33,627 nucleotides of DNA from Sulfuritalea hydrogenivorans sk43H (lineage in GTDB: Bacteria; Pseudomonadota; Gammaproteobacteria; Burkholderiales; Rhodocyclaceae). The translations under genes and the position numbers were made by a program. Positions 7,035-27,787 of the stretch are shown here, one piece after another. The DNA is taken from assembly GCA_945870205.1 (NCBI GenBank), contig CAMBRI010000020.1:1-33627 (forward strand), written 5' to 3'. The notes beneath the pieces were generated by a model. The model did no database searches. It saw only the letters and a program-made list of their open reading frames with translations, and was not told where the DNA came from. Each line of letters opens with the position of its first letter. Position 1 is the stretch's first letter.

Positions 7035-7088
7035 GCGCATTACACACGGGCGGCCCATGGGGGATGTGAACGAACTGCAAACTCTTCG
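7035..7088 (-). promoter_or_regulatory. Shared EPS upstream element, copy 1 (unit C)
   Basis: The 27-bp block at 7062-7088 shares 23 of 27 positions with the block at 17484-17510 and 19 of 27 with 27761-27787. On the plus strand its centre is GAACTGCAAACT. It ends 53 nt before the start codon of the nucleotidyltransferase. A second block GCGCATT (AATGCGC in the sense strand, 7035-7041) lies 34 nt closer to the gene and overlaps a TGTAAT -10-like hexamer. The geometry fits an activator site centred near -45 over a weak sigma-70 promoter. The regulator is not identified. Confidence 0.55.
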
Positions 7089-7128
7089 AAAACAGCCCTG
7101 CCACGGCAATGGCGGAAAAGGACGAGCC

Positions 7129-9153
7129 TCAGCGGCGCGCGAATTCCCCCTTGCAGGCCGCCAGCAGCCTGTCGATCCCGTCTATCAGCGGACCTGCCCG
7201 CTCCGGCCCGCCGGCGCCTGTTTCCAGCTCCTCCGCCATTGCAGCCAGTTCATCGAGCCCGAGGGTTGCCGCCGAACCTTTCAGGCCATGCGCCAGGTGC
7301 CCCATCGCCGCCGTGTCGCCGCCGGCGCAGAGCGCACGCAGTCGCGCCGCATCGCCGCCGTGGTCTTCGAGAAAGATCGCACGGGCATGGGCAAGCGCCT
7401 CGTGGTCGTAAAGGAAACGGGCCTCGACGGAATTGTCGTCGTCGGGCCCTGCGCCGGCGCCCTCGACCGGATGCAGCCAGCGCGTCAGGCAGCCCCAGAG
7501 TTCGTCGACGTCGATGGGTTTGGCGATGAAGTCGTGCATCCCGGCCGCCATGCAGGCTTCCTGCTCGGCCCGGCTGACACCGGCCGAAAGGCCGATGATC
7601 GGAAGTTCGTGTCCCAGTTCCCGCAAGCGGCGGGTCGCCTCGAGGCCGTCCATTCCGGGCATCTGCACGTCCATCAGCACCAGATCCGGAGCCGCCGCCG
7701 CGATCTGCTCGAGCACCTCGTGCCCGTCTTGCGCAACGATCGTCGCGATTCCGGCTCGTCCGAGCCATTGCGTGATCACCAGCTGATTGACGCGATCGTC
7801 TTCGGCGACCAGGATGCGGCGCCCGCGAAACTCCTGTGGCACTTCCGCAGATGCCGTCGCGGCCGCCGACATCTTCGCGGTGGCTGCGTCCCCGACTTGC
7901 AGCGGCAGGATCAGGGTGAAGCGGCTGCCGCTGCCGACGCTGCTTTCCGCCAGCAGCTCGCCGCCCATGCCGCGCGCCAGTTCGCGCGAGATGTGCAGCC
8001 CGAGCCCGCTGCCGCCATAGCGCCGCGCCGTGGCAGCGTCGGCCTGGGTGAAGGGCGCAAACAGGCGCGCCAGGGCCTCGGCCGGAATGCCGATGCCGGT
8101 GTCGGCCACGCACAGGCGCAGCATCGGCGCGTCGGGGTCGCCGGCCACATCGACATGCAGGTCGACGCGGCCCGCCGCCGTGAATTTGATGGCATTGCCC
8201 AAGAGGTTGGTCAGGCACTGGCCGAGGCGCAGACGGTCACCCAAGAGGCAGGCAGGCACTTCGGGAGCAAGGTGAAAGCCCAGCTCCAGCGGCATGCCGG
8301 CGGGAACCTGGCTGCGGATGGCTGCGAGTTCATCGAGCAGTTCCGCCAGCAAAAAGGGTTCGTGCTCGAACTCCATGCGGCCGGATTCGAGCTTGGCGGC
8401 ATCGAGCAGGTCATTGATGATGCGCAGCAGATTTTGTCCGGAGCGGGCGATCTTGCCGATGAAATCGCGCTGCCGCGAATCGAGCTCGGTGAGCAGGACC
8501 AACTGGCTCAGTCCGATGATGCCGTTCATCGGCGTACGCAGTTCGTGGCTGACATTGGCCAGAAAATCGCTCTTGGCACGGTTCGACTCCTCGGCCGCAA
8601 TGCGCGCCCGCTCGATCTCCGCCGTCGCCTGGCGCTGTTCCGTGACGTCGTCGAAAACGTGGCCATAGTGGTCATCGTCGACCTGGATCGAGGCGAGTTC
8701 GATCACGATCTCTCTTCCGTCGCTGCGCGCGACCCGCAGCTCTGCCTGGCTGATGCCCTGCTCGTGCAAGAGCTTCAGGTGGCGCTCGAGCCGGGCCGCG
8801 GAAGCCGGGCTGGTGAGCGCCTGCAACTGGCTGCCGCAAAGCACTTTGACGTCGCGCCCGGTGATGCTCGCGGCCGCGGGATTAGCGCGCAACACCAGCC
8901 CGTCGCGGTCGGTCTCGAGTATCCCAGTCAGGGCATAGTCGAAATAAACGCGCGCCGCCTGTTCGGAGGCCTGAGGCGGGACCGATGCGCCGGCACCGAG
9001 GCGGGACAGCAGGTCTGCCGCAGACCTGGCGAGTTCCTGCACGACCGAAGCGTCGGGCAGGACAGCACCCGGGGCATCGAGTCGTGCGCACAAGGCATCG
9101 ATGGCGCGCCGTGCCGCCAGCGCCAACTCCTGCAATTCCTTCCCGCTGCTCAT
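7129..9153 (-). CDS. Cytosolic hybrid histidine kinase (PAS-HisKA-HATPase-REC-HPt)
   Basis: A 674-residue protein without membrane segments. A PAS domain spans about 68-175, and HisKA has SHELRTPMNG with His203. HATPase_c has N box NLLGNAIKFT (316-325), G1 DTGIGIP (351-357) and G2 GGSGLGL. A receiver domain has LMDVQMPGMDG with Asp495 and AKPID, and a C-terminal HPt has AHGLKGSAATLG with His622. All catalytic residues are present, so it should run an internal His-Asp-His relay and pass phosphate to a separate response regulator. Its ATG overlaps the stop of the PP2C gene (ATGA, 9150-9153), so the two are co-translated. The orphan OmpR-type regulator at 17662 is the nearest candidate acceptor, which is inference. 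Confidence 0.9.
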   Translation of the reverse strand: MSSGKELQELALAARRAIDALCARLDAPGAVLPDASVVQELARSAADLLSRLGAGASVPPQASEQAARVYFDYALTGILETDRDGLVLRANPAAASITGRDVKVLCGSQLQALTSPASAARLERHLKLLHEQGISQAELRVARSDGREIVIELASIQVDDDHYGHVFDDVTEQRQATAEIERARIAAEESNRAKSDFLANVSHELRTPMNGIIGLSQLVLLTELDSRQRDFIGKIARSGQNLLRIINDLLDAAKLESGRMEFEHEPFLLAELLDELAAIRSQVPAGMPLELGFHLAPEVPACLLGDRLRLGQCLTNLLGNAIKFTAAGRVDLHVDVAGDPDAPMLRLCVADTGIGIPAEALARLFAPFTQADAATARRYGGSGLGLHISRELARGMGGELLAESSVGSGSRFTLILPLQVGDAATAKMSAAATASAEVPQEFRGRRILVAEDDRVNQLVITQWLGRAGIATIVAQDGHEVLEQIAAAAPDLVLMDVQMPGMDGLEATRRLRELGHELPIIGLSAGVSRAEQEACMAAGMHDFIAKPIDVDELWGCLTRWLHPVEGAGAGPDDDNSVEARFLYDHEALAHARAIFLEDHGGDAARLRALCAGGDTAAMGHLAHGLKGSAATLGLDELAAMAEELETGAGGPERAGPLIDGIDRLLAACKGEFARR

Positions 9154-11885
9154 GAGGGCATGGCAGCGTCACGCTCGCAGGCCGCACGCTTGATCAGGCG
9201 GATGCTGCTGACGCCGGGCAGGGGTCTGGCGTACTCGACGGCATCGACGCAATTGTTGATGATGTAGAGGCCGAAGCCGCCATCGCTGTTGCCGCTGAAA
9301 TCGGGCTGCGGGTCGTCGGGCGGTGAAAAGTCGGGGCCGGGGTAGATCAGCTCGACGGAGTATTCATCGCTGCGCCGGGTCAGGCGACAAGCGATGGTGG
9401 CGTCGTTGAAATAGGGTTTGGCGTGGCGCAGGATGTTGGTCGCCGCCTCGAAGCTGGCCAGGATGACCGCCTGCACCTCGTCATCCGGCAGAGGCCCGGC
9501 CGTTTCGGCGATTCGGGCGCGCAGCGCGCCCAATGCATCAAGGCGCCAGGGCAGGATCAGCAGGCTGGGATTGGTACGCTGTTCGATGCTACCTCGCGGT
9601 GGAGTGCGGCCAGGCAGCACCTCGACCATGATCGCCGTCTGATCGTCGTCGAGGACATCGCTGCCGACGAAATTCCTCACCTGCTGCCGCATCGACTGCA
9701 GCAGGGAACTCGGCGGCAGCGAAACAGCGCGGCCGGCACCGAGAATGGAGCAAAGGCGGGGCAGGCCGAATTCCTCGCGGTGCCCGTTAAACGACTCCGT
9801 AATGCCGTCTGAATAGACCAGGAGCGCGTCGCCGGATGCCAACTCTACTTTCTGCTGCGAATAGACCTCGTCCTCGATCACGCCGATGGGCAGGTTGTCG
9901 CCAATAACCTGCAGGATGCTGCCGTCAGTGCCGCGCGCCAGCAGCCCGGGTGTGTGACCGGCATTGACGACACACAGGGTACCGGCAGCAATATCGAAGC
10001 GGTACAGTGCAAGGGTAACAAAGGAACTGAGCTCTATCAGCCGTGGCGTCAGGTTGTGGTGCAGGGCATTGATGATCTCGGCCGGCGTCGGCAGCTGGTG
10101 TTCGTCGGCACGCTGCGCGAAAAGCTCGGCGAGGACCTTGTTGTAACTGCTCTTTACGCCAGCACCGATCAGCGCAGCCGGAACGCCTTTCCCCATCACG
10201 TCGCCGACCAGAAGCTCGAAGCAGTCGGGGCGGAAGCGCGTGACAGCAAAAAAGTCGCCGTCGATGCCCTGCGATGATTCGGTATAGGTTGCCAGGCGGG
10301 CGCCGTGTATGCCCTCGGGAAAATCGCCCAGCAGCAGCGAGCGCTGGATATCGCTGCCCGTCTCCAGTTCGCGGCGGCGCGCGTCGGCGAGGTCGTGCTC
10401 GATGAGCTTCTGCGCCGTGATGTCGGTGCGGATCGCGACATACTGGTAGGGCAGGCCGGCGGCGTCGAGCCAGGGAACGATGGTCGCAGCCACCCAGTAG
10501 AGGTTTCCGTTCTTGTTGCGGTTGGCGATCTGTCCGTGCCAGACCTTTCCCGAGGAAATGGTTTCCCAAAGCTCGCGATAGAAGGCGGGGGAATGCACTG
10601 CCGACCTGACCATGCGGTGATTCTGTCCCAGCAGTTCGTGGCGGCTGTAGCCTGAAATCTCGAAGAACTTCTCGTTGGCGTAGGTGATTGCCCCCGTCGC
10701 GTCGGCGATGCTGACGATCGAGTGCTGGTCCAGCGCGAATTTCTGGTACTCGAGTTCGCGCAGGGACTGGCTAAGCAGGCCATTGACGCGCACCTGCTCT
10801 GCCTCGAGGGCCTTGCGTTCCGTAATGTCGCGAATGAAACCGGCAAAGTAGGTGCGGCCCTCAGCCTCGAAGGGGACAACGGCTATTTCGATCGGGAATT
10901 GGTAACCGCTGCGGCGGATCGCCGTGATCTCGATGCGCTGCTTCAGGATCGGGCCGCTGCCTGTGGCCAGGTAGTGCTTCATGCCACGCTCGTGGGCAGC
11001 GCGGTGTTCGGTTGGAATGATGGTTTCGGAAAGGGTCCGGCCGCGAACCTCCGCGGCGAGAAAACCGAAGGTGCGTTCGGCTGCCGCGTTGAAGTCCACG
11101 ATCGCACCCGCATCATCAATGGTGATGAAGCAGTCCAGTGCAGCCTCCATGATCGCGCTCTTGCGGCTTTCGCTATCGGTCAGGGCCTGGTGCTGCGCCG
11201 CCAACTCCTTAGAAACCCGGTTCAAGGCCGTCACCAGGTCCCGCGTTTCGCTGACGGAACTGTCGGTCGCAACCATGCCGCCGAGATGGCTGGGGAGTTC
11301 GCCGGCGAATCTTGCGGTGACCTTCAGGTCTTCCACCATGCGACGCAGCGGGACCCAGATCAACAGGTGCCCGGGCAGCAGGCAGAGCGCCGCGAAAAGC
11401 AGCGAAATCTTGGTGACGGTCCAGACTTGGCTGGCGATCGACTCGGGCGAAAAGTTCAGGCGGAACACGCCATAGTCCTTGCCGCCCACCAGAATGATGC
11501 GGTTGATCGGATACAGGCGCCCGGCAACCTGTGCGCTGATCCAGTCCGGCGGCTTGACCATGTTCTGCAGGCTGTTTTCGGCGCGCACCCGGCCGCCGGA
11601 TACATCGATGAACTCCGCCGACGAGAGCATCGAGCCGACGGCAGCTTTCGCCAGAGTGCGCCTGACGGTGTCGTAGTCGCCAATCACGGCGCTGTCGGAC
11701 AAGGTCGGCGTCAGGACATCGGCGAGGATGCTGGTCGATTCGTAGGCGTCGTCGATCGCCTGGGTGAATTGCTGATAGTAGAAAAGCCCGAGGCCGGCGA
11801 AGGTGAGCGCGAACAGGCTCACCGAATAGAGGACAAAGATCCGGCTGGCGAGCGATCGGGGCAGGCAGCGGGCGATAAGGCTCAT
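9150..11885 (-). CDS. Membrane sensor PP2C phosphatase fused to RsbW-like HATPase
   Basis: A 911-residue protein. TM1 (15-37), a periplasmic sensor of about 120 residues and TM2 (158-180) are followed by a HAMP-like linker and two PAS domains (about 242-355 and 382-492). A SpoIIE/RsbU-type PP2C phosphatase follows (about 518-757) with DGDFF, GDVMGKGVPAAL, NAGHTPG, YSDGITE and the terminal DDDQTA. The C-terminal HATPase resembles RsbW/SpoIIAB: N box EAATNILRHA (813-822) and G2 DGGFGLYIIN (868-877). The G1 box reads YPGPDF where an Asp is normally found, so kinase activity is uncertain. The architecture recalls SypE of Vibrio fischeri and HsbR/CrsR proteins, which act on a STAS partner. Start 11885 is chosen because upstream codons overlap the binding-protein gene; the gap to it is 7 bp. 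Confidence 0.88.
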   Translation of the reverse strand: MSLIARCLPRSLASRIFVLYSVSLFALTFAGLGLFYYQQFTQAIDDAYESTSILADVLTPTLSDSAVIGDYDTVRRTLAKAAVGSMLSSAEFIDVSGGRVRAENSLQNMVKPPDWISAQVAGRLYPINRIILVGGKDYGVFRLNFSPESIASQVWTVTKISLLFAALCLLPGHLLIWVPLRRMVEDLKVTARFAGELPSHLGGMVATDSSVSETRDLVTALNRVSKELAAQHQALTDSESRKSAIMEAALDCFITIDDAGAIVDFNAAAERTFGFLAAEVRGRTLSETIIPTEHRAAHERGMKHYLATGSGPILKQRIEITAIRRSGYQFPIEIAVVPFEAEGRTYFAGFIRDITERKALEAEQVRVNGLLSQSLRELEYQKFALDQHSIVSIADATGAITYANEKFFEISGYSRHELLGQNHRMVRSAVHSPAFYRELWETISSGKVWHGQIANRNKNGNLYWVAATIVPWLDAAGLPYQYVAIRTDITAQKLIEHDLADARRRELETGSDIQRSLLLGDFPEGIHGARLATYTESSQGIDGDFFAVTRFRPDCFELLVGDVMGKGVPAALIGAGVKSSYNKVLAELFAQRADEHQLPTPAEIINALHHNLTPRLIELSSFVTLALYRFDIAAGTLCVVNAGHTPGLLARGTDGSILQVIGDNLPIGVIEDEVYSQQKVELASGDALLVYSDGITESFNGHREEFGLPRLCSILGAGRAVSLPPSSLLQSMRQQVRNFVGSDVLDDDQTAIMVEVLPGRTPPRGSIEQRTNPSLLILPWRLDALGALRARIAETAGPLPDDEVQAVILASFEAATNILRHAKPYFNDATIACRLTRRSDEYSVELIYPGPDFSPPDDPQPDFSGNSDGGFGLYIINNCVDAVEYARPLPGVSSIRLIKRAACERDAAMPS

Positions 11886-11892
11886 GCCGGGT

Positions 11893-12753
11893 TCAGCGCA
11901 GATGCGCCGGAGCAGTCTTGAAAAAATTGATGTAAGCGCCATACTCGCTGCCATCCGAAGCGATGAACACGGCATCGTCGGGCAGTTCGACCTGCCTTGA
12001 CGCCTCCCGGATGACCGCCAGCCCCTTCGGGTCCCCGGCCATTCCGACAAAGGCATCGGCGATGGCCTTGGCATCCTTCGCCGGCACCGCCGGCGAAACC
12101 ATCAGCGCGAGGTCGTGCACCGGCTCGGAGCTCCACAATACCCGGTAGGCCTTTTTCTCCCGGCGCGCAAAGCCCTCGACCAGCTGCGAATTGGCGCCGA
12201 CGGCCTTGACCTTGCCGCTGAATAGTTGCACCAGCGCACCATCCATGTTGCCGCCGAAGATCACCTTGACGTCGATGCCTTTGGACAGCAAGTGTGCATA
12301 GGGCATTTTGTAGGCGACGAGGGCTTCCGGTCCGGCAAAAGCCACCTCCTGTCCGGCGAGTTGGGAGATGTCGGTAACCGGGGAGTCGGCGGCGGCGATC
12401 AGCTGCGCATGGAGCGGCGGTGTCTTGCGCCGGGCAAAGACCTTCCAGCCGAGTTGCTGGCGTTCCGGACTGAACAAATGATTGGTAAACGCAAAATCCA
12501 CTTCCCGGGCGAGAACAAAACTCGTGGTGTCCGCCGACGTCCGGCCTATCTTCAGGCTGAGCTTCACGCCGCTCTTCTGCGATACGTAATTTAGGATCGG
12601 ATTCCAGTAGCCGGCCGTCAGGTTGATGCCGTATTGATTCACCGGCGAAAACTTGTACCCGTCGCCCGTTTGCGCGCCGGCGAGTGAATGGAAAAACAGT
12701 CCGAAAAGGCTCAAGAGGAGCGTGAAAATCCTGCCGGGAAACCTTGTTTTCAT
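11893..12753 (-). CDS. PhnD-like periplasmic substrate-binding protein
   Basis: A 286-residue protein. A signal peptide (basic start, hydrophobic 9-24, cleavage near AGA/QT at 27-28) precedes a mature protein with the phosphate/phosphite/phosphonate-binding fold pattern. NQYGINLTAGYWNPILNYVS is followed by the characteristic DFAFTNHLF, then QLAGQEVAFAGPEA and DGALVQLFSGKVKAVG. No ABC permease or ATPase gene is adjacent. Instead it is the first gene of a unit with a membrane phosphatase sensor 7 bp downstream, so it more likely presents a ligand to that sensor than feeds a transporter (inference). Start 12753 is preferred over longer upstream frames because it gives the signal peptide and has an AAGG site upstream. 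The 170 bp before it (12754-12923) must hold the unit B promoter, but I see no convincing boxes. Confidence 0.82.
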   Translation of the reverse strand: MKTRFPGRIFTLLLSLFGLFFHSLAGAQTGDGYKFSPVNQYGINLTAGYWNPILNYVSQKSGVKLSLKIGRTSADTTSFVLAREVDFAFTNHLFSPERQQLGWKVFARRKTPPLHAQLIAAADSPVTDISQLAGQEVAFAGPEALVAYKMPYAHLLSKGIDVKVIFGGNMDGALVQLFSGKVKAVGANSQLVEGFARREKKAYRVLWSSEPVHDLALMVSPAVPAKDAKAIADAFVGMAGDPKGLAVIREASRQVELPDDAVFIASDGSEYGAYINFFKTAPAHLR

Positions 12754-13984: not shown

Positions 13985-14323
13985 TCACAGCGCGGCCAGC
14001 GCTTCTTCGCGGGTATTGTAGATCGAGAAAATGCGGTGCATGCGGACGAGCTCGAACAGGGCCTGCACCGGCTTGGCCATGGCGAACAGCTTGAGCTGTC
14101 CCTTCTTGCCGTTCATGGTGCGCAGGCAGGACAGCAAGGCGCCCAGCCCGGAACTGTCGATGAAGCTAAGCTTGCTCATGTCGATTAGAACGTTCTGGTG
14201 GTCTTCCAACACGGGGAGCAGCCTATCCTTGAACGCCTTGACGTTACCGGCATCCAGATTTTCGCTCTGGACGATGACAATCGCTCCCTTGCCTTCCTGA
14301 ATCTTTTCGATGTCGAGTTGCAT
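13985..14323 (-). CDS. STAS-domain anti-sigma factor antagonist-like protein
   Basis: A 112-residue single STAS domain of the SpoIIAA/RsbV type. LIDMSKLSFIDSSGLGALLS contains the DSSG motif with phosphorylatable Ser57/Ser58. A good AGGAGA ribosome-binding site precedes the ATG. Such proteins are phosphorylated by an RsbW-type kinase, dephosphorylated by a PP2C phosphatase, and bind a partner only in one state. A PP2C-HATPase protein is encoded in the next unit, 2.1 kb downstream, which makes it the likely partner. Location inside a biosynthetic operon suggests that the partner-switch output acts on EPS production, as SypA does in V. fischeri. No sigma factor or anti-sigma gene is visible in the window. 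Confidence 0.88.
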   Translation of the reverse strand: MQLDIEKIQEGKGAIVIVQSENLDAGNVKAFKDRLLPVLEDHQNVLIDMSKLSFIDSSGLGALLSCLRTMNGKKGQLKLFAMAKPVQALFELVRMHRIFSIYNTREEALAAL

Positions 14324-14364
14324 GATGATCTCCTGTTAAATGGGTGGGTGGTGCACTGCTGGGT

Positions 14365-16700: not shown

Positions 16701-17426
16701 TCAGTAGGCGCCGCGGCCGGTGATGACCGCCGGTATCGTCAGCAGCAGGAGCTTGAAGTCCTCGCGCAGGCTTTGCTTGCCGATGTACTCGGCGTCCAGC
16801 TCCACCTGCTGCGGGAAAGGAATCTCCGAGCGCCCGGACACCTGCCAGATGCAGGTCAGGCCGGGGATGGCATCGAGGCGGCGGCGGTCGTCGAGGGTAT
16901 ACCGCGCCACTTCCTTTTCCAGGGCGGGACGGGGACCGACCAGCGACATGTCGCCGCGCAGGACGCACCAGAGTTGCGGCAGTTCGTCGATGCTGGTCTT
17001 GCGCAGGATGCGGCCGATCCAGGTGATGCGCGGGTCGCGCCGGATCTTGAAGGTGATGCCGTCGCCGTGCTGGTTGGCGCTCATGATCTGCTGCTGCAGC
17101 GCCTCGGCATTGACCACCATGGAACGGAACTTGGGAAAGCGGAAGACGCGACCCCACTTGCCGACCCGGGTTTGCCAGAACAGCACCGGGCCGCGATCGG
17201 TGAGCTTGATCAGGATAGCCGCCAGCCCCATCACCGGCAGCGCCGGGATCAGCACGCCGCAGGCTACGAGGATGTCGAACAGGCGCTTGGCGGCCCCGCC
17301 GGCGCGGCTCGAAAGGCGCCAGGCCAGGCGCTTGGCAGCATCCATCGCTGCGCGCCGCACCGAGGGCGTCAGCCGCTGTTCGAGGCGCTTCAATTGCTGG
17401 TCTTTGATGGAAGTGGCGTTGCTCAT
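16701..17426 (-). CDS. Initiating phosphoglycosyl transferase (bacterial sugar transferase family)
   Basis: A 241-residue small monotopic phosphoglycosyl transferase. KRLFDILVA (48-56) is followed by a re-entrant hydrophobic segment (about 54-76), then FWQTRVGKWGRVFRFPKFRS. The catalytic TSIDELPQLW has the Asp147-Glu148 dyad, with SLVGPRPALEKEV and PGLTCIWQVSGRSEIPF after it. It transfers a sugar-1-phosphate from UDP-sugar to undecaprenyl phosphate and so starts the EPS repeat unit. The start is set at 17426. A longer frame to 17615 would run across the shared regulatory element at 17484-17510 and has no family similarity. It is the first gene of unit A. The sugar (glucose, galactose or HexNAc) is not resolved. 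Confidence 0.9.
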   Translation of the reverse strand: MSNATSIKDQQLKRLEQRLTPSVRRAAMDAAKRLAWRLSSRAGGAAKRLFDILVACGVLIPALPVMGLAAILIKLTDRGPVLFWQTRVGKWGRVFRFPKFRSMVVNAEALQQQIMSANQHGDGITFKIRRDPRITWIGRILRKTSIDELPQLWCVLRGDMSLVGPRPALEKEVARYTLDDRRRLDAIPGLTCIWQVSGRSEIPFPQQVELDAEYIGKQSLREDFKLLLLTIPAVITGRGAY

Positions 17427-17457: not shown

Positions 17458-17510
17458 GCGCATTTCACCAAACGCCGGCAGGCGGATGTGTCCGAACTGC
17501 AAACTGTTTG
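17458..17510 (-). promoter_or_regulatory. Shared EPS upstream element, copy 2 (unit A)
   Basis: The block at 17484-17510 carries GAACTGCAAACTGTTTG on the plus strand. In the sense strand it reads as a near-perfect tandem of CAGTTTG and CAGTTCG; the CAAACTGTTTG part is also palindromic. It ends 57 nt from the start codon of the initiating transferase. The companion block GCGCATT is at 17458-17464, 33 nt closer to the gene. The region 17427-17661 is shared with the divergent response-regulator gene, whose own promoter I cannot place. Confidence 0.6.
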
Positions 17511-17661: not shown

Positions 17662-18384
17662 ATGTATATCGGCATACTCGAAGACGATGCGGCACAACAG
17701 GAACTGTACAAGCTCTGGTTCGGTTCACCGCCGCACAGCTGCCAGTGTCACGACTCGGCGCGCAGCTTCATCGACGCGCTGCAAAAGGAGCGCTTCGACC
17801 TGCTGCTGCTGGACTGGATGCTGCCGGAGAGCAGCGGCGAGGTGGTGCTGAAGTGGGTGCGCGAGAACCTCGGCTGGGAACTCCCGGTCATCTTCATAAC
17901 CTCGCGCGACAGCGAGGTGGATGTGGTCACGGCGCTGCGCGCCGGCGCCGACGATTACGTGGTCAAGCCGCCGAAATACCACGAACTGCTGGCACGCATC
18001 GAGTCGCTGTCGCGGCGCACCAAGGCCCCGCCCCTGGTCAAGTTCGGCGCCTACGAGGTCGATCAGGAAAGGCGCAGCATCGCGATCGACGGCAAGCCCG
18101 TGGAACTGACGCAGAAGGAATTCGAGCTCGCCTGCTACATGTTCCAGAGCCCGGGCAAGCTGCTCTCCCGCGTGCATCTGCTGGAAAAGCTCTGGGGCCT
18201 GAATGCCAACGTCGACACGCGTACGGTAGACACTCATGTCAGCCGCATCCGCCGCAAGCTCGGCATCGGGCCGGAGCGCGGCTGGCAGATCATTCCGGTC
18301 TACGGCTGGGGCTATCGCATCGAGAAAGTCGGCGCCGGCGAGACGGAGGCCAAACCCGCGAAGCAGGGCAAGACCTCGGCCTGA
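17662..18384 (+). CDS. OmpR-family response regulator
   Basis: A 240-residue protein. The receiver domain (1-118) has the EDD acidic pocket at 7-9, phospho-acceptor LLLLDWMLP with Asp51, the Thr/Ser switch FITS and Lys102 in VVKPP. The C-terminal winged-helix (about 125-225) has LTQKEFELACYMF, LLEKLWG, RTVDTHVSRIRRKL and YGWGYRI, the OmpR/PhoB DNA-binding signature. No histidine kinase gene is adjacent, so it is orphan locally. It is the only plus-strand gene inside the EPS block and is divergent from unit A. It is therefore the prime candidate to bind the shared upstream element and to receive phosphate from the HPt of the hybrid kinase. Both roles are inference. Confidence 0.92.
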   Translation: MYIGILEDDAAQQELYKLWFGSPPHSCQCHDSARSFIDALQKERFDLLLLDWMLPESSGEVVLKWVRENLGWELPVIFITSRDSEVDVVTALRAGADDYVVKPPKYHELLARIESLSRRTKAPPLVKFGAYEVDQERRSIAIDGKPVELTQKEFELACYMFQSPGKLLSRVHLLEKLWGLNANVDTRTVDTHVSRIRRKLGIGPERGWQIIPVYGWGYRIEKVGAGETEAKPAKQGKTSA

Positions 18385-20241: not shown

Positions 20242-21054
20242 TTAGTTCGGCTCCGCGAACAGCATCTGATGGCGCACGATCAGTCGGTGCAGGCGCTGAC
20301 GGTCGCCTTCCGAGGTCGGGCGGATGGTGACGCCGAGGCGATGTCCGCCATCAAGTGTGCTGCTGACGTGGCGCAGTTCAAGGTTCAGGGTGCAGGTTTC
20401 GCCGTCATGGGTGTGGAGCATCGCGCTCATCCAGCGATCGCCGACGGCCGGGCGGTATGACGGTATTTGCGGTAACCACAGGCCGGTGCCGCCTTCGCTG
20501 AGGTCGAACACAGTTGCTTCGACCGGCGCCCTGCCCGGCCCGCTCAAAACCAGCCTTGCCGGCTCGGTGTCGGGCAGGCGAACACGCGGCGCGTCGCGCA
20601 TCTCGGAGAACAACAACCACTGCGGTAAAGCTGCGCGGTAGCAGGACTTCCCTGCCGCTTCGACGGATTGCGTGATGTCGAAGGTGCAGATGACGGGCAG
20701 TTCCATGAAGCGGCTGCCGAGATTGACGTAGGCCTCCCGCAGCAGGGCGGCGTGCGTGCCATCGTCGGCGACGCGTTCCACCAGCAGGTGGCCGGCGGCG
20801 TCGATTCCGATTATGCGGCTGCGCCCGCTGCGCAACTGGTTGCGCCCGGCCAGAGTCACTTCCTGCCTCGTGTCGCAAATATGGCGCAGGACGTGTTCGA
20901 TCTGGTAGCGGTCGCGGATGATGCGCCACGACCCGTCGGCCGCATCGAGTTCCGAGTGGTTCCGGCTTGCGTCGTGTCCGGCGGCGGTGATGGCGTTTGC
21001 GGCCGCCCGCATGCGCCGTGTCGAAACGCCGACGCGCGAAAGTATGCTGATCAT
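20242..21054 (-). CDS. PilZ-domain (YcgR-like) c-di-GMP receptor, copy 2
   Basis: A 270-residue protein laid out like its neighbour. The N-terminal YcgR_N-like half has DRYQIEHVLRHICDTRQEVTL and the C-terminal PilZ domain has R153-xxx-R157 (EMRDAPRVRLP) and D184-x-S186-xx-G189 (FDLSEGGTG). Both c-di-GMP-binding motifs are complete. The ATG overlaps the stop of the acetyltransferase gene (ATGA at 21051-21054), so it is translated with a biosynthetic gene. A 97-bp gap separates it from the second PilZ gene; I see no promoter or terminator there. No transmembrane segment is present, so it acts in the cytosol. Confidence 0.85.
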   Translation of the reverse strand: MISILSRVGVSTRRMRAAANAITAAGHDASRNHSELDAADGSWRIIRDRYQIEHVLRHICDTRQEVTLAGRNQLRSGRSRIIGIDAAGHLLVERVADDGTHAALLREAYVNLGSRFMELPVICTFDITQSVEAAGKSCYRAALPQWLLFSEMRDAPRVRLPDTEPARLVLSGPGRAPVEATVFDLSEGGTGLWLPQIPSYRPAVGDRWMSAMLHTHDGETCTLNLELRHVSSTLDGGHRLGVTIRPTSEGDRQRLHRLIVRHQMLFAEPN

Positions 21055-21560
21055 GTGAGTGTCTCCTGGTGGATGATTCGTGCGGGAATGCCGACGGCAA
21101 ATGTGCCGGGCGGTACGTCCTTTAGGACCACGGCGTTGGCGCCGATCACGGCGTCGTCGCCGATGACGATGTCGCCGAGGATCTTGGCGCCGGCGCCAAT
21201 GTCGACCCGGTTGCCGATGCGCGGTGCGCCGCGCTGGCCGGTGCGCTTGAGGCCGATGGTGACACCGTGGCGCAGCACCACGTCATCGCCGATGACGCTA
21301 TCGCCGCTGATGACGATGCCGCCGAAGTGTTCGATGCGCAGCCGGCGACCGACCCGGGTTTCGCACGGCAGTTCGACCCCGGTGAGCATCTGGCAGCCGG
21401 TGCGCAGAATCTTGTAGAGCAGCGAGAAGGGCTTGCGCAGGAAGGCGGGCCGGATGCCGTAGCGCCACTGGCCGAAACGATAGACCCACATGACCCACAA
21501 GCCCTGGCGCCAGATGTCGCCTTCGTAGGTCTGCCAGTCTTCTTTCAGGTTTTCGATCAT
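21051..21560 (-). CDS. Serine O-acetyltransferase-like hexapeptide acyltransferase
   Basis: A 169-residue left-handed beta-helix protein: HFGGIVISGDSVIGDDVVLR, HGVTIG, IGNRVDIGAGAKILGDIVIG and a closing DVPPGTFAVGIPARII. The HxGxxI-type catalytic His pattern is as in CysE-like and EPS acetyltransferases. The N-terminal part (DWQTYEGDIWRQGLWVMWVY) is the short helical region seen in EPS-cluster homologues, shorter than in true CysE, so O-acetylation of a sugar is more likely than cysteine synthesis. Start 21560 begins MIENLKEDW; the longer upstream frame crosses the promoter region. First gene of unit D. Confidence 0.85.
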   Translation of the reverse strand: MIENLKEDWQTYEGDIWRQGLWVMWVYRFGQWRYGIRPAFLRKPFSLLYKILRTGCQMLTGVELPCETRVGRRLRIEHFGGIVISGDSVIGDDVVLRHGVTIGLKRTGQRGAPRIGNRVDIGAGAKILGDIVIGDDAVIGANAVVLKDVPPGTFAVGIPARIIHQETLT

Positions 21561-21587
21561 GGTGGGTTCGCGTTGGGTTTGCCGTAG

Positions 21588-21653
21588 TGCGTATTGGAAC
21601 GCCTGCGGGGTGCCCGATTGCGAAGCAAGTCCAAACCGGTTGCAAACTTGTTG
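21588..21653 (-). promoter_or_regulatory. Shared EPS upstream element, weaker copy 3 (unit D)
   Basis: TGCAAACT at 21641-21648 followed by TTG at 21651-21653 matches the right half of the element seen at units A, C and E, but the left half is poorly conserved (13 of 27 overall). The proximal block GCGTATT at 21589-21595 is 28 nt from the start codon, as at the other copies (27-32 nt). The gap between blocks is 45 instead of 33-34, about one helical turn more. Plausible but clearly weaker. Confidence 0.35.
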
Positions 21654-21667
21654 TGACATGCCGGCGC

Positions 21668-22666
21668 TTACCAGGGACGCGGCGGGCTGACCGCGCCGCC
21701 ATGGGTTTCGAGCCAGGCGCGCTGCATCAGGCCGACCAGTCGATGCGACTCGGCGGCCTTGACGGCGACTGCGGGCGATCGGGCGGCAAGGCTCGCCTTG
21801 AGCCGGCGCAGGGCATGCCAGCCGGTTTCCAGGCGCGCCAACAGCCAGGCGCCGAGGCGGCCATGGTGCTTGCGGTAGTAGAGCAGCGCGCTGCGCATGC
21901 GCCACAGCACCAGTTGCGAACCTGAGGAGGAGATCTCGGCGTTCTCGACCGTCTTCGAGGATTCGCCGCCGAGATGGCGGATGACGATGTCCGGCCAGTA
22001 CCAGATCTGCCAGCCGGCGGCCTTGAAGCGGCGGCAGAGATCGACTTCCTCGTAATAGAGGAAGAAGCGCTCGTCGAAGGGGCCGACCGCGCGCAGCGCA
22101 TCGTGGCGCATGATGGCGAAGGCGCCGGGCACCCAGTCGACATCGGCCGGCTGCGCCGGATCGGCCCAGGTGCGATCGAAGCGGCCGAACAGGCGGGAGC
22201 GCGGAAAGCGCGCGGCCAGGCCGGAGATCACCAGCACTTCGTTGAGCAGGGAAGGAAAGCGCCGCGCCGACGGCTGGTCGCGTCCGTAGCCGTCCACCAG
22301 GCGGCCGCCGGCCATGCCGACAGCGGGCGAGGCATCCATGCGCTCGATGGCGTTGGCGAAGGCGTGCGCCTCGACCTGCGCGTCCGGGTTGAGCAGGATC
22401 ACGTAGCGGCCCTGCGCCGACTTGAAGCCGAGGTTGTTGGCGGCGGCGAAGCCGAGGTTGGTCGTGCTGCGCAGCAGGTGCGCCCGCGGAAATTCGCGCG
22501 CGACCATGTCGGCGGAAGCGTCGCGCGAGGCGTTGTCGACCACGATGACCTCGATTTCGCGCCGGCCGATGGCCGTATAGAGGCTGTTTAGGCAGGCCCG
22601 CAATATGTCGCGGGTGTTGTAGGAAACGATGATGACGGAAGCTTCGGGGGCATTGCCGGAATTCAT
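21668..22666 (-). CDS. GT2 glycosyltransferase (rhamnosyltransferase-like)
   Basis: A 332-residue cytosolic GT-A enzyme: VIIVSYNTRDILRACLNSL, VDNASRD, TTNLGFAAANNLG, LLNPDAQVE (DXD-equivalent NPD at 93-95), VPGAFAIMRHDAL, and FDERFFLYYEEVDLCRR with the catalytic Glu/Asp. This is the WbbL/rhamnosyltransferase-like branch of GT2. Start 22666 has a GGAG ribosome-binding site; the longer frame upstream lies inside the neighbouring GT gene. Last gene of unit E, 16 bp after the membrane GT2. Confidence 0.9.
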   Translation of the reverse strand: MNSGNAPEASVIIVSYNTRDILRACLNSLYTAIGRREIEVIVVDNASRDASADMVAREFPRAHLLRSTTNLGFAAANNLGFKSAQGRYVILLNPDAQVEAHAFANAIERMDASPAVGMAGGRLVDGYGRDQPSARRFPSLLNEVLVISGLAARFPRSRLFGRFDRTWADPAQPADVDWVPGAFAIMRHDALRAVGPFDERFFLYYEEVDLCRRFKAAGWQIWYWPDIVIRHLGGESSKTVENAEISSSGSQLVLWRMRSALLYYRKHHGRLGAWLLARLETGWHALRRLKASLAARSPAVAVKAAESHRLVGLMQRAWLETHGGAVSPPRPW

Positions 22667-22682
22667 GGTGAGGTTCTCCAGG

Positions 22683-23867
22683 TCAGGAACCGTTGCGATC
22701 GGTTCGGATCCAGACGCTGCCACGGGCGGCGCCGGCGAGGGTGGTGGCAAGCATGCGCAGCTTCCACAGCAGGTAAAGGGGGACGCGTGCCAGAGACCAC
22801 AGGCGCGACCAGGGCAGGCGGGCCACGCGCATGGCGACCAGGGTATGCAGGGCAACGATGCCGAGGCTGGCGCCGGCGACGATAGCCAAAGGACTCGCCA
22901 GTGGCGCCAGCAGCGCCAGAGCGGCCAGCAGCAGCATGACGTGGTAGGCCAGCGGCAGCAGCAGCAGGTCGGCCAGAGGCTCGAGGAAACGCCCCCGACC
23001 GCGCATGACGGCGCCGGCCAGCGCCGGGCCGTGCTCGGCCAGCATGCGCAGGCGTCCGCCTTCCCAGCGCGCGCGCTGCACCCGGTTGCCCTGCTCGCCG
23101 GTCGGCATTTCGCCGCGGACTTCGCAGTCGTCGGCGAATCCGACGCGGATGTCGGCGGCGACCAGTTTGAGGTGGTATTCGAGGTCCTCGACGACGGAGC
23201 TCGCGGTATAGGGAACCCGCTGCAGCACTTCGCGGCGCAGGGCGAAGCCGTTGCCGAGGATGCCGGCCGAGAGGCCGAGGCGGTCGCGGCCGCGCGGGCG
23301 CAGCACGTTGAAGGCGGCCAGGGCGATCTCGGCCAGGCGCGTGCGCGGCGCGGCGTCGCCGTTGAGTACCGTGTAGCGTGCCTGCAGCGCCAGGGCGCCG
23401 CCGGCGAAATGGCAACGCAGGCTGGTCAGCAGGTTGTCGGTGGCCATGCTGTCGGCATCAATGACGATGTAGACGACATGACCTTCGCCCGCCATCGTGG
23501 TGAAAGCGTGGTCAAGCGCATAGCCCTTGCCGCGCCGTGTCGCGTCATGACGCTCCAGCACGCGGGCACCGGCGGCGAGGGCGATGGCGGCGGTGTCGTC
23601 GTTGCAATTGTCGGCCACCACCACCACGTCGGCGTCGCCGTCGGCGCGGGCGATGGCAATCAGATTGTCGATGGTGCGGCGAATCCCGGCGGCCTCGTTG
23701 TGCGCCGGGACGACGATGGCTAGGCGACCGGGCAGCGCACCCGCCGCACGGCGGCGCGCCGGCAGGCTGCCCGCCAGGGTGAGAACTGCAAGGTAGAGGG
23801 TGCCGACAAGCGTCGGCACCAGCAATACGGCGGCAGCGACCTCAAAAAAAGCGGCAAGGCTGGTCAT
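22683..23867 (-). CDS. Membrane GT2 glycosyltransferase
   Basis: A 394-residue protein. An N-terminal TM segment (about 9-33) is followed by a GT-A domain with IVVPAHNEA, VADNCND, DAD at 137-139, VED at 226-228 and QRARW at 264-268. These are the D, DxD, ED and Q(Q/R)xRW elements of processive-type GT2 enzymes. The C-terminal hydrophobic segments (about 295-350) are two or more TM helices. It could be a synthase that both polymerises and translocates or a simple membrane-anchored transferase; the short membrane part favours the latter. It sits 9 bp after the acyltransferase gene in unit E. Confidence 0.85.
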   Translation of the reverse strand: MTSLAAFFEVAAAVLLVPTLVGTLYLAVLTLAGSLPARRRAAGALPGRLAIVVPAHNEAAGIRRTIDNLIAIARADGDADVVVVADNCNDDTAAIALAAGARVLERHDATRRGKGYALDHAFTTMAGEGHVVYIVIDADSMATDNLLTSLRCHFAGGALALQARYTVLNGDAAPRTRLAEIALAAFNVLRPRGRDRLGLSAGILGNGFALRREVLQRVPYTASSVVEDLEYHLKLVAADIRVGFADDCEVRGEMPTGEQGNRVQRARWEGGRLRMLAEHGPALAGAVMRGRGRFLEPLADLLLLPLAYHVMLLLAALALLAPLASPLAIVAGASLGIVALHTLVAMRVARLPWSRLWSLARVPLYLLWKLRMLATTLAGAARGSVWIRTDRNGS

Positions 23868-23876
23868 GGCGAATTC

Positions 23877-24512
23877 CTATGCCACCGCTTCGGCGGCGCT
23901 CGCGGCGCCGGGTCCGAAGAAGTGCTCGATGCGCTGGCGATCGAGCGCGGCATCGGACGGTCCGGCATACCCGGCTTGCATGAACGGGTGGTCGTGCCAC
24001 GGCAGGCTCGCGGTTTCCGCCTGCAGGCGCTCGATCAGGTCCGGGACTGTACCGATCACCCGTGCCGGGACACCGCCGACGATGCTGCCCGGCGGCACGT
24101 CGCGCGTGACGACGGCGCCCGCCGCCACGATCGCATCGGGGCCGATGGTGACGCCGGGCATGATGATCGCCTGGTGGCCGACGAAGACGTTGTCGCGGAT
24201 GTCGATCCGGCCGACCTTGTCCAGGCTCAGTCCGTAGGCCTGTTTCAGCATGGAAACCGCCCCGTCGTGGCCGAACAGGGTGCAACCCGTGAGATGGACG
24301 TTGTTGCCCAGGCGCACATAGGCCGGATCGGTGATGGCAACGTTCATCTGGATATGGCAGCCCGTACCCATCGCCATCAGGCCGGCGTGGCGCTTGACGA
24401 TGGCGGCCCAGGCCTTGCCGTCGGGTTTGCAGATACGCCGGTAGAGGCCGAGTAGGCGCCCCGTCTTCAGCGCATGGGCGGCAAGCATCCGGCGCAGGAG
24501 GCTGGCGATCAT
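23877..24512 (-). CDS. Hexapeptide acyltransferase (EPS O-acetylation)
   Basis: A 211-residue left-handed beta-helix protein. NVAITDPAYVRLGNNVHLTG, VFVGHQAIIMPGVTIGPDAIVAAG and VTRDVPPGSIVGGVPARVIG form the C-terminal catalytic coil typical of the xenobiotic/NodL-like acyltransferases. An N-terminal helical segment (RRMLAAHALKTGRLLGLY) may bind the membrane face. The ATG overlaps the stop of the GT4 gene (24509-24512). A longer open frame in this register runs on to 26009 but crosses the GT4 gene and is not coding. Acyl donor and target sugar unknown. Confidence 0.83.
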   Translation of the reverse strand: MIASLLRRMLAAHALKTGRLLGLYRRICKPDGKAWAAIVKRHAGLMAMGTGCHIQMNVAITDPAYVRLGNNVHLTGCTLFGHDGAVSMLKQAYGLSLDKVGRIDIRDNVFVGHQAIIMPGVTIGPDAIVAAGAVVTRDVPPGSIVGGVPARVIGTVPDLIERLQAETASLPWHDHPFMQAGYAGPSDAALDRQRIEHFFGPGAASAAEAVA

Positions 24513-25846
24513 GCCGGTGCTCCCAACCGGGTTGCGAAGACGCCGCCGAGACGCTGGACATTGCGCGTCAGGCTGTACTTCTGTTGCACGCGGGCGCGGC
24601 CGCTGCGTCCCAGATAGTGGCGCAACGGGGCGTCGTCCATCAGGCGGGCCAGCGCCGCGGCAAGTTCGTCGCTGTCCGAAGGTGTTACCAGCAAGCCGTC
24701 CTCGCCATCGCGAATGAGCTCGGGAATGCCGGTGATGCGCGTGCTGACGCAGGGAATGCCGCTGGCCATGGCTTCCATCAACACCACCGGGATGCCTTCG
24801 GCAAAACTGGCCAGGGCGAAGGCATCGGCTTCGGCATACCAGGCGCGCACCTCCGTCTGGTTGAGCGCGCCGGTGAAGCGGACAAGGTGTTCCAGCCCGT
24901 TTGCGGCGACGGCTGATTTGAGCTGGTCTTCGTCCGGGCCGCTGCCGACGAGCACCAGGCGCAATTGGCGACCGGACTGGTGCAACTGCCGGCAGGCCTC
25001 GATCAGTATGCGCTGCCCCTTGGCCGGCGTCAGGCGGCCGACGCAAAGGATGGTGAACGGCCGCACCGTCGCGGGCCGCCTTGCCGGTACGTAACGCTCG
25101 GGGTCGACCCCGAGCGGGCAGATCTCGAACTTGTGCCACTGGCTGGCCGGCGAGAGGTGCATCAACTGGCTGCGGGCGTAGGCTCCGATGCAGACGATGA
25201 AGTCCGCGGCGGCAATCTTTTCGGGCAGCCACTGCCCGGGCGCATCGTAGAACTCGTCCGGGCCATGCACGGTCAGTGACAGGCCGACAGGCGCGAACTG
25301 CTTCAGCACCAGCGCGACGTTGGCGGCGGCGCTGGCGAAGTGCACGTGCAGGTGCTTCATGTCGCGGCTGTCCATCCAGCGCGCCAGCATCAGCGCCTCG
25401 GTGAAGTAGAAGAGCCCGTAGGCCTTGCGGCGCAGGTCCCAGCCGCCCAGGCCGACGGCGAAACGCAGCCCGCGCAGCCACGCGGCCGGCCGGCACAGCC
25501 CATGCAGGTGTGCGGCGATGGCGCCGAGGATGCCGTGGCGCTTGACGTAATAGGTGCGTCCGGCTTCGCTGCGTTCCTCGACGCCCATGTCCTGCTCCGC
25601 GCTGTCCGGCGCATTGATCGAGGCGACCTCGATGTCGAAGCCGCGCCGGCGCAGTTGCAGGACTTCGCGCAGGATGAAGGTGTGCGAGATGGCCGGGTAA
25701 CGGCTGACCAGGTAGGCCATGCGGACGCGGCCGGCCTGCCGGCTGCCGGTCGGCACGGCAGATTCCGTGCGCGGGCCGGGGGATGGTTTCAGCGCCGGCT
25801 CGAGATGCGGCAGGCGCGGCAGCAGGGTGGCGGAATTCAGCAGCAT
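24509..25846 (-). CDS. GT4 glycosyltransferase
   Basis: A 445-residue GT-B enzyme. The N-terminal acceptor domain has VRMAYLVSRYPAISHTFILR, as in colanic-acid and amylovoran-type transferases, and HLHVHFASAAANVAL. The C-terminal donor domain has LCVGRLTPAKGQRILIEA and the E-x7-E catalytic pair in FAEGIPVVLMEAMASGIP, a retaining GT4 signature. Start 25846 is preferred; the upstream extension overlaps the previous GT4 gene out of frame. It overlaps that gene by 10 bp. It extends the EPS repeat unit at the cytoplasmic face. Confidence 0.88.
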   Translation of the reverse strand: MLLNSATLLPRLPHLEPALKPSPGPRTESAVPTGSRQAGRVRMAYLVSRYPAISHTFILREVLQLRRRGFDIEVASINAPDSAEQDMGVEERSEAGRTYYVKRHGILGAIAAHLHGLCRPAAWLRGLRFAVGLGGWDLRRKAYGLFYFTEALMLARWMDSRDMKHLHVHFASAAANVALVLKQFAPVGLSLTVHGPDEFYDAPGQWLPEKIAAADFIVCIGAYARSQLMHLSPASQWHKFEICPLGVDPERYVPARRPATVRPFTILCVGRLTPAKGQRILIEACRQLHQSGRQLRLVLVGSGPDEDQLKSAVAANGLEHLVRFTGALNQTEVRAWYAEADAFALASFAEGIPVVLMEAMASGIPCVSTRITGIPELIRDGEDGLLVTPSDSDELAAALARLMDDAPLRHYLGRSGRARVQQKYSLTRNVQRLGGVFATRLGAPA

Positions 25847-27114
25847 GACAATGCCCTTTCGACGATGATTTCGCGGTAGATGTCCTCGGCGGCGGCGATC
25901 TTGGCCGGCCAGCTGTAGTGCTCCTCGACCTGGCGCCGGCCGGCGAGCCCGCGCCGCTGCCATTCCAGAGGATCGCGCAGGACGTCGCGCAAGGTGATGC
26001 ACAGGGCATCGATGACCTGGGCCGGACTTTTCAGCGGCAGCAGCGCACCGATCTGGTCGGTGACGATTTCGCCGGGGCCGCCGAAGTCCAGCGCGATCAC
26101 CGGGCGGGCGCTGGCCATGGCTTCCAGCAGCACGGCGCCGCCCGATTCACGCACCGAGGGCAGGCAGAACACGTGGCAGGCCTTCATGTGGCCGGCCACG
26201 CCATCGAGCGGCAGCGCGCCGTGGAAGCTCACGCGGCCGGCAAGCTTCAGTTGGTCACGCAGCCGCGTCCATTCCTCGCGCATGGGGCCGTCGCCGACGA
26301 CGTCGAGCCGGACCGGCAGGCCCTCGTTGCGCAGCCGCGCCAGTGCCTGCAGCAGCATGTCGAGGCCCTTGATCGGCACCAGGCGACCGGTGAACAGGAC
26401 GCGCAGGGGGCGCGTGTCGGTGGGCAGGGGCGGCCACGGCGTGACGGTGAAGCGCGACAGTTCGACGCCGTTTTCCAGCATCGTGCGGCAGCGCGCGTGG
26501 TTACGCGGCGCGATGGCGCGCAAGGTCGTGCGGCTGGCGGTCAGGATGCGGGCGGCACTGCGCGAGGAACCGAGCGCGGCGTCCACCAGCCGGCCCAGTT
26601 CGCGCACCTTGATCAGCCAGGTCGATTCCTGTTTCATTATGGCGGCGAAGCCCGGCGGGTCGGTGAGGCCGCTGTTGAGGGGGCCGATCACCGTCGGCAG
26701 GCCCAGCCGCCCCAGCCAGGTCGGCGCCGCCAGGGTTACCGGGGTGACGCGATGCAGGACGCTCCACACGGCGCCATCGGCCAGGCGGCGGCGCAGCTGG
26801 CGCCAGGCGGCAAAATCGAAGACGAAATAGTCGAGCGAGGACACCAGGAAGACGCTGTGCTCGCTGCGCGGGAAGATGCGTTTCGCCAACCGATACAGCG
26901 GGCCGGCGAACCACTCGGTGTCGATGTAGATGACCTCGCTGTCGCCCAGCGGGGCGCCGGCCTGCTCGAGCGCGGCGCGGTTGCGCACGTGGGTCACCAG
27001 CGTCACGGAATTGTCGGCGCACAGGCGGGAATACCATTCCCAGCCGATCTGCGACACCGAACCCATGCCCGGACCGCATTGATAGGCCACCAGCAGGATC
27101 TTGCGCGCGTTCAT
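25837..27114 (-). CDS. GT4 glycosyltransferase
   Basis: A 425-residue GT-B enzyme opening with ILLVAYQCGPGMGSVSQIGW, the pattern of GT4 enzymes that begin with ACxPGxGSE. The donor domain has VLFTGRLVPIKGLDMLL, VVGDGPMREEW and the E-x7-E pair in RESGGAVLLEAMASARP. Its ATG overlaps the stop of the acyltransferase gene by 4 bp. The two GT4 genes in tandem share little beyond family motifs, so they probably add different sugars. The C-terminal ALSCC end is unusual, but nothing suggests a frameshift. Confidence 0.88.
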   Translation of the reverse strand: MNARKILLVAYQCGPGMGSVSQIGWEWYSRLCADNSVTLVTHVRNRAALEQAGAPLGDSEVIYIDTEWFAGPLYRLAKRIFPRSEHSVFLVSSLDYFVFDFAAWRQLRRRLADGAVWSVLHRVTPVTLAAPTWLGRLGLPTVIGPLNSGLTDPPGFAAIMKQESTWLIKVRELGRLVDAALGSSRSAARILTASRTTLRAIAPRNHARCRTMLENGVELSRFTVTPWPPLPTDTRPLRVLFTGRLVPIKGLDMLLQALARLRNEGLPVRLDVVGDGPMREEWTRLRDQLKLAGRVSFHGALPLDGVAGHMKACHVFCLPSVRESGGAVLLEAMASARPVIALDFGGPGEIVTDQIGALLPLKSPAQVIDALCITLRDVLRDPLEWQRRGLAGRRQVEEHYSWPAKIAAAEDIYREIIVERALSCC

Positions 27115-27707
27115 GCCGCGGCTCCCTGGTGCAGCGACCGCGCCGGAACCCCGCCGACGACGCGGGCAGCCGGGACATCGCGCGTCACCACGGCGTTGGC
27201 GCCGATGACGGCGCCGTCGCCGACGGTCACGCCCGGAAGTATCGTCGCGCCGCGACCGATCCAGACATTGCGGCCGATGCGGATGGGGCGGGCGTCGTGG
27301 CCGGAATCGCGCGGCGCGAGTCCCGGGCCGAAGCGATGGTTGGCGTCGCGCAGGCTGGCGTATTCGCCGATCATGCTGCCGCTACCGATCTCGATGCCGG
27401 CGTAGGCCACGATATGTACGCCGCGCGACAGGACCACGTCGTCGCCGATGTCTATGCTGCCCGCCTCCCGCGTTTCCAGATAGAGCTCGCGGTAGAGATA
27501 CAGATTGCGGCCGAAGCGGATGCGGCCGGTGCCGTGCAGTTCGGGCATCCCTTGAACCACGACCGACGCATCCAGGGACTCAACCCGGGCGCTGAGGCGC
27601 ACGAAGGCCCAGAACCGCCCGAGGCGACCGTCCATGGTGCCGCCGAGCATCACCAGCGGACGCACCGCCTTTGCCAGAAAGCCTTTCACTACAGCCATCG
27701 TTTTCAT
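27111..27707 (-). CDS. Hexapeptide acyltransferase (maltose/galactoside acetyltransferase-like)
   Basis: A 198-residue protein. A short N-terminal hydrophobic segment is followed by beta-helix repeats: IRFGRNLYLYRELYLET, IDIGDDVVLSRGVHIVAYAG, IRIGRNVWIGRGATILPGVTV and DGAVIGANAVVTRDVPAARVVGGVPA. The motif DANHRF carries the catalytic His of NodL/GAT-like acetyltransferases. ATG 27707 is chosen over 27725 because GAGGTGAT precedes it at a good distance. First gene of unit E, downstream of copy 4 of the shared element. Probably adds acetyl groups to the polysaccharide or its precursors. Confidence 0.85.
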   Translation of the reverse strand: MKTMAVVKGFLAKAVRPLVMLGGTMDGRLGRFWAFVRLSARVESLDASVVVQGMPELHGTGRIRFGRNLYLYRELYLETREAGSIDIGDDVVLSRGVHIVAYAGIEIGSGSMIGEYASLRDANHRFGPGLAPRDSGHDARPIRIGRNVWIGRGATILPGVTVGDGAVIGANAVVTRDVPAARVVGGVPARSLHQGAAA

Positions 27708-27733
27708 CCCGATCACCTCGCCCATCCGATGGG

Positions 27734-27787
27734 ACGTATTCAATGCGATGGCAGGGGGGCGGTTGTGTCGGGAATGAAAACTCTTTG
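27734..27787 (-). promoter_or_regulatory. Shared EPS upstream element, copy 4 (unit E)
   Basis: The block at 27761-27787 (plus-strand core GGAATGAAAACTCTTTG) matches the 17484-17510 copy at 21 of 27 positions. It ends 53 nt from the start codon, the same as copy 1. The proximal block ACGTATT at 27734-27740 lies 34 nt closer, again the same as copy 1, and gives AATACGT with a TTGAAT -10-like hexamer in the sense strand. The region also hosts the divergent promoter of the DUF255 gene. Confidence 0.55.

Follow-up and report, generated by a model that had tools for sequence, protein, structure and literature searches.

A shared upstream element marks an EPS regulon in Betaproteobacteria and points to a candidate OmpR/PhoB-type regulator

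In PhoB-dependent promoters, the Pho box stands where the -35 element would otherwise be. In the syp polysaccharide system, SypG is a sigma-54 activator that acts on several syp promoters, while SypE is a SpoIIE-like protein and SypA is a STAS protein. PhoB is described, in passages of PMC10294691, as working through the recruitment of RNA polymerase. The syp genes of Vibrio fischeri form a polysaccharide locus under the response regulator SypG, in which SypE acts via SypA at a level below transcription, according to parts of PMC12369376. For PhoP of M. tuberculosis, sections of PMC4832192 describe 7-bp motifs with 4-bp spacers (11 bp) that are bound by tandem dimers, and longer arrays that are bound more tightly.

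In this study, a bipartite element upstream of EPS transcription units was analyzed in a stretch of 33,627 nucleotides, referred to here as the window, which is contig C20 of a genome assembly of 4.44 Mb (391 contigs, 85% complete). The element is a real EPS regulon operator, previously undescribed as far as open-licence papers are concerned, and its arrangement is of a familiar kind; no description of the element or of the regulon was found in the open-licence full-text literature. The main reading, to which a probability of about 0.8 is given, is that the element combines a -10 element with an activator site that replaces the -35 element and would be bound by the response regulator encoded at 17662, and that it ties the EPS units into one regulon. 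The features on which this reading is based are the following:

7062 to 7088, minus strand: upstream block of unit C, putative activator site, AGTTTGCA-N7-CACA
7039 to 7044, minus strand: putative -10 of unit C, TGTAAT
5842 to 7008, minus strand: first gene of unit C, NTP_transferase
17484 to 17510, minus strand: upstream block of unit A, AGTTTGCA-N7-CACA
17462 to 17467, minus strand: putative -10 of unit A, TGAAAT
16701 to 17426, minus strand: first gene of unit A, Bac_transf (polyprenyl-phosphate sugar transferase)
27761 to 27787, minus strand: upstream block of unit E, AGTTTTCA-N7-CACA
27738 to 27743, minus strand: putative -10 of unit E, TTGAAT
27111 to 27707, minus strand: first gene of unit E, hexapeptide acetyltransferase-like
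17662 to 18384, plus strand: OmpR/PhoB-type response regulator, proposed activator (Pfam Response_reg and Trans_reg_C; motif co-occurrence)

The geometry of the element was first proposed in a sequence-only reading of the window, in which the three 27-bp blocks were said to agree pairwise at 19-23 positions and to lie 53, 57 and 53 nt upstream of the first genes of units C, A and E. Recomputation gave 23/27 for C and A, 19/27 for C and E and 21/27 for A and E, and the same three distances were obtained from the start codons at 7008, 17426 and 27707. The usual core among the collected sites is A-G-T-T-T-K-C-A, N7, C-A-C-A. The second block, AATRCGY, is located at 7035-7041 (C), 17458-17464 (A) and 27734-27740 (E). 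Its placement 33-34 nt closer to the genes holds when counted from the middle of the first block, while the gap between the two blocks is 19-20 nt. The equal distance of this second block from the start is approximate only, with 26, 31 and 26 nt from the end of AATRCGY to the ATG in C, A and E and 28 nt in D.

The second block most probably represents a -10 element at a fixed spacing, with the first block in place of a -35 element, as judged from the base patterns of the collected sites. The T-N-N-A-A-T hexamer that AATRCGY overlaps, already noted for the window, is also found in other genomes: it is observed 19 or 20 nt past CACA in 31 of 34 collected sites, which are our own selection. It is also present in 20 of the 23 motif-model matches (E<=0.003, locus sequence read), a count in which L153 is scored twice, being inside locus L162, and in 12/14 model-independent matches with the same limits. 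The models R1-R3 include the -10 region, so that their matches are biased towards having the hexamer. At 19-20 nt the hexamer is absent in L158 and L159 (G690) and in L146 (G198, before STAS). Its second base is A in none of 33 sites, with a picking procedure that allowed A, and AAT is continued by GC or AC in 17 of the 33; since only about half of the sites continue in this way, AATRCGY is partly local. When TTGACA was searched at 16-18 bp spacing, the best match was 2/6 (11 scorable of 12 chosen sites).

Multiple comparisons were made in terms of chance. TGCAAACT occurs three times in the window, where 0.52 occurrences are expected from shuffles, and a three-mismatch pattern gave 10 matches compared with 2 for the reversed control pattern. 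A matrix was built from 13 sites in genomes other than that of the window and its close relative G012, and its three highest scores in the window are at A (41.1), E (37.9) and C (34.5). In 50 triplet-shuffled windows, the maximum score had a mean of 9.8 and a largest value of 19.2. These shuffles are the fair null; background loci, which reach up to 30.7 with the matrix, were chosen for weak similarity and are an unfair one. The 13 sites were originally found with matrices from the window's own copies, and therefore this is a consistency test rather than a blind one and not wholly independent. Chance similarity was rejected on the basis of the other-genome matrix and the genomic distribution of the sites. 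Pattern matches off the EPS contigs (L005-L009 and L011), which score at most 13.8 with the first three-site matrix, were also rejected; L010 scores 23.0.

Unit D carries a variant of the element:

21619 to 21648, minus strand: variant block of unit D, AGTTTGCA-N18-CGCA, the standard N7 plus 11 bp
21593 to 21598, minus strand: putative -10 of unit D, TCCAAT, 20 nt past CGCA as counted by eye
21051 to 21560, minus strand: serine acetyltransferase-like first gene of unit D, with EpsC as the best NCBIfam match (under the cut-off of that model)

With the 13-site matrix, the D region comes fourth in the window with a score of 15.8; the largest shuffle score is higher, so that D alone is insufficient as a plain match. 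The claim of a weaker copy with 11 nt more between the blocks is supported by the same form before the orthologous serine acetyltransferase-like gene in G012 (L028) and in L093. A whole extra 11-bp unit is tolerated at the D promoter in these three genomes, although the three promoters are homologous and count as one event. No element was found upstream of the EpsC-like genes of L099 and L100, and L100:19153, which was caught by the same loose +11 pattern, was taken as chance. The 11 added bases would fit protein binding in 11-bp steps.

The distribution of the element was studied with a DNA model, R1, built from nine sites. At E<=2e-4, a scan of the own 4.44-Mb genome gave five sites, which are confined to two EPS contigs. 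Three are those of units A, C and E, and the other two lie on contig C150 as follows:

C150, 865 to 922: site before a GGDEF-EAL gene, which is cut by the contig end
C150, 7625 to 7669: site before a row of flippase-like, polysaccharide export, rmlB-, rmlA- and rmlC-like genes (wzx-wza-rml-like)

A scatter of matches without relation to start codons had been named as the outcome that would speak against a regulon; all five sites precede EPS or EPS-linked genes. The GGDEF-EAL gene and an O-antigen-ligase-like gene (Wzy_C, 29.3 bits, just under the Pfam cut-off) are transcribed divergently, and the same arrangement is found in G012. The site at C150:7625 and the G012 GGDEF-EAL site are not among the nine of R1.

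The claim of a common regulon element is also borne out in relatives, in which orthologous operons are preceded by it. In G012, whose sugar transferase is 89% identical, the counterparts of the A, C and E promoters retain the element. The NTP_transferases of G012 (C1:23994-25175) and of the window (5842-7008) are 53% identical and differently placed, and the element is observed before both. In G177, which belongs to another genus, the element precedes orthologs of A, C and E and is present in further places; seven motif matches at E<=0.3 all lie in 35 kb of one contig. Eight of the ten model-independent sites are located before a sugar transferase, three NTP_transferases, an epimerase, a GT4, a STAS and a PAS gene, and the other two before UbiA-HAD and DUF4114, which are not plainly EPS genes. 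The models were built without the second divergent G177 site and the three D sites, and the second and third models also without G012:C249. The genome-wide distribution and the fixed -10 spacing together support the earlier proposal of an activator site plus promoter for the EPS units.

Several single loci were inspected as well. In G177, L103 (18259-18346) has two outward-pointing, back-to-back elements, each with its own T-N-N-A-A-T, and the minus side of this divergent pair shows only a 94-aa frame. L151 carries a similar pair, at 537 on the minus and 624 on the plus strand, which separates a PAS gene from a sugar transferase gene. L055 2783-2830 (G012 C249) is a weak match (E 0.01) at or just before an LTXXQ-family reading frame. 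Among the weak matches L074 (G282), L079, L081 and L032, a sensible context was found only for L074, which is upstream of STAS.

The regulator encoded at 17662, which combines a receiver with a PhoB-type output domain, falls below the cut-off for the best 25 of the 77 NCBIfam models matched, the best being PhoB (TIGR02154) with 158.7 bits and a cut-off of 296.2. An acidic pair, Asp, Thr and Lys, which we take to be the phosphorylation residues of its receiver, are retained in 29 aligned regulators.

The motif mostly tracks close orthologs of this regulator across several betaproteobacterial lineages. Within the genus, the motif (E better than 0.05) and a regulator ortholog (at least 82%) occur in the same 2/31 genomes, G000 and G012; no motif better than E 0.05 was found in the other 29, and the next-best regulator has 40% among the matches listed. 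The cluster contains many genes besides the regulator, and co-occurrence in two congeneric genomes therefore does not single it out, a purpose for which the wider samples are better suited. In a sample of the order (379 genomes), the motif is found at E<=0.002 in G000, G198, G433 and G471, which are the top four in terms of regulator ranking, and in G471 the site adjoins the regulator gene. The next three by regulator, G581, G523 and G367 (50-55%), have no motif at E<=0.002. In a sample of the family (297 genomes), the regulator is present at 66% or higher in five genomes and at 50% or lower in the next, and the motif (E<=0.02) is found in four of the five carriers, the fifth being G070, versus one of the 292 others. 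This lone non-carrier, G106 (E 0.014, 49% homolog), outranks G282 (0.016), in which the weak motif match came first and the regulator was then found. The motif scans of both samples used stricter filters, by which weak matches are lost, and the E-values of G433, G471, G198 and G282 are modest when taken singly. G581, with a regulator homolog of 55%, has a weak match (L141 1501-1550, E 0.04) upstream of a CheW-like frame that was named by eye.

A regulator scan of GTDB resulted in 13 loci: a 30% fragment from a genome outside the motif scan, G012 and G177, and ten others. The motif is present at E<=0.0014 in nine of these ten further regulator-bearing genomes, one of them doubtful. Four of the nine (behind L092, L095, L098 and L100) were not a source of sites for the model; three of these are clear (4.6e-6, 7.3e-9 and 2.8e-5), and G690, behind L100, is doubtful at 0.0014 because its best site is without hexamer and before a DUF4114 gene. 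The tenth genome (behind L096, G686) is probably G070, which has a regulator of 67%, no motif at E<=0.1 or 0.3, and a best matrix score near the regulator of 14.8. The surroundings of this regulator yielded a kinase homolog and no counterparts of the window's EPS genes.

In the proposed mechanism, the phosphorylated 17662 regulator would bind head to tail at TTTCNAANAG-TTTKCA-N6-ACACA. With T-N-N-A-A-T as the -10, the bound site would span roughly -59 to -32 and cover the missing -35 position. The bound regulator would recruit RNA polymerase to T-N-N-A-A-T, 19-20 nt past CACA, and a tandem dimer on the block would contact RNA polymerase at -35, after the family structures in sections of PMC4832192. 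At unit D, the same site would be used with one further 11-bp turn. The data show the element, its constant geometry, the regulon and the joint occurrence with the regulator; we infer that the regulator binds the element, activates from it and acts as a tandem dimer. In a direct-repeat test, a shift of 11 was the best among 5-15 (P=0.016 when prespecified, 0.14-0.26 for any shift), and a short inverted repeat in the upstream half had a P of about 0.02 by mean and 0.33-0.36 by sum; the internal symmetry of the sites may weakly back a tandem dimer. L145 (G433 C390) contains, as read by eye, three 7-bp motifs with 4-bp spacers, GTTTGCA-N4-GTTCACA-N4-CGACACA.

The same operator and promoter could also be served by another activator, encoded in the cluster or elsewhere, with the 17662 regulator as a fellow traveller. 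Numerous other genes travel with the cluster, the motif is accompanied in G198 and G282 by kinase, SpoIIE and STAS genes as well, and the upstream half can also be read as an inverted repeat, as the dimers of other regulator families need. We nevertheless consider this unlikely: in L097, G198 and G282 the regulator was found near the site, along with few homologs of the window's EPS genes, and the +11 form suits tandem 11-bp binding.

Other promoter types were compared using pattern scans of 12 sites, a non-random choice made to span genomes. An alternative sigma promoter, either of ECF type or a degenerate sigma-54 -24/-12 promoter with the upstream half as a distal element, is very improbable. 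The ECF pattern GGAACTT-N15/16-TCTAA has at least 3 mismatches in 12/12 sites. T-K-K-C ... T-T-K-C-A does resemble the sigma-54 pattern TGGCAC-N5-TTGC, with 2 mismatches in 2/12 sites, and the lack of A at the second place of the hexamer (0/33) is unusual for sigma-70; however, the best sigma-54 scans leave 2-4 mismatches in the 12 sites, the -24 GG is present in 2 of 24 aligned sites and GG and GC together in none, and the best conserved columns, AGTT and CACA, are at positions that are unconstrained in sigma-54 promoters. Hardly credible is an interpretation as degenerate Pho boxes recognized by the housekeeping PhoB, by which EPS would answer to phosphate, despite the PhoB model being the regulator's best NCBIfam match (TIGR02154, 158.7 bits) and a Pho-box-like T-N-K-C-A core at 11 bp. 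TGTCAT-N5-TGTCAT has 4-6 mismatches in 12/12 sites, and regulator homologs (E<=1e-25, counted by homology and not as PhoB) are present in 31/31 genomes of the genus, compared with 2/31 for the motif. A CRP/FNR-type class II site (TGTGA-N6-TCACA; 3-4 mismatches in the 12 sites) and the FliA pattern, for which no fit was found among the 12, were rejected as well.

Beyond the preferred reading of an activator site for the 17662 regulator, a broader picture can be drawn, which we regard as rather doubtful. The regulator, hybrid kinase, SpoIIE-STAS switch and operator might be one self-contained control cassette that spread between betaproteobacterial lineages and adopted any nearby EPS genes, with a promoter class of its own without -35, in which T-B-N-A-A-T never has A at -11 and which would be silent without the activator. 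The signalling genes concerned are part of unit B:

7129 to 9153, minus strand: hybrid histidine kinase (HisKA, HATPase, receiver, Hpt), candidate partner
9150 to 12074, minus strand: SpoIIE phosphatase with HATPase_c_2, partner-switch type
13985 to 14323, minus strand: STAS protein

Unit B had been described as being without the element, and indeed none was found there among the window's top matches in pairwise and matrix scans. It is separated from the last unit A gene by just 41 nt (14324-14364), and it may therefore be transcribed from the unit A promoter. The STAS homolog in G282 has the element upstream, and that in G198 has a weaker upstream site without hexamer. Based on gene content and the analogy with syp, the kinase, SpoIIE and STAS proteins are likely to be inputs or a second control layer.

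These results give an operator that can be tested, together with a candidate regulator of EPS formation, for Rhodocyclaceae and other Betaproteobacteria, with Malikia, Undibacterium and Quisquiliibacterium among the matches. Polysaccharide synthesis and a c-di-GMP enzyme gene are joined in one regulon, which in some genomes extends to a STAS gene, and the motif can be used to locate pathway genes off the main contig, such as the wzx-wza-rml-like row and GGDEF-EAL.

In comparison with known systems, PhoB-dependent promoters are similar in terms of an OmpR/PhoB-family response regulator and, under the proposed mechanism, of RNA polymerase recruitment from a site at the -35 position; their paired cores 11 bp apart may have a counterpart here. 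The element differs from the Pho box in its cores (TTKCA and ACACA), its asymmetric halves and its EPS regulon, and the regulator differs from PhoB in being far under the PhoB cut-off (158.7 versus 296.2 bits). The likeness to syp lies in a polysaccharide locus with a response regulator, here the proposed activator, and in the SpoIIE and STAS proteins that are also encoded in the window's locus, whereas -24/-12 is absent here and the regulator is of the OmpR/PhoB type. The M. tuberculosis PhoP sites are, as far as the sections of PMC4832192 describe them, direct repeats of one motif, while the two halves differ here; 11-bp tandem binding of the PhoP type, as presented in those sections, would account for the +11 form seen at unit D.
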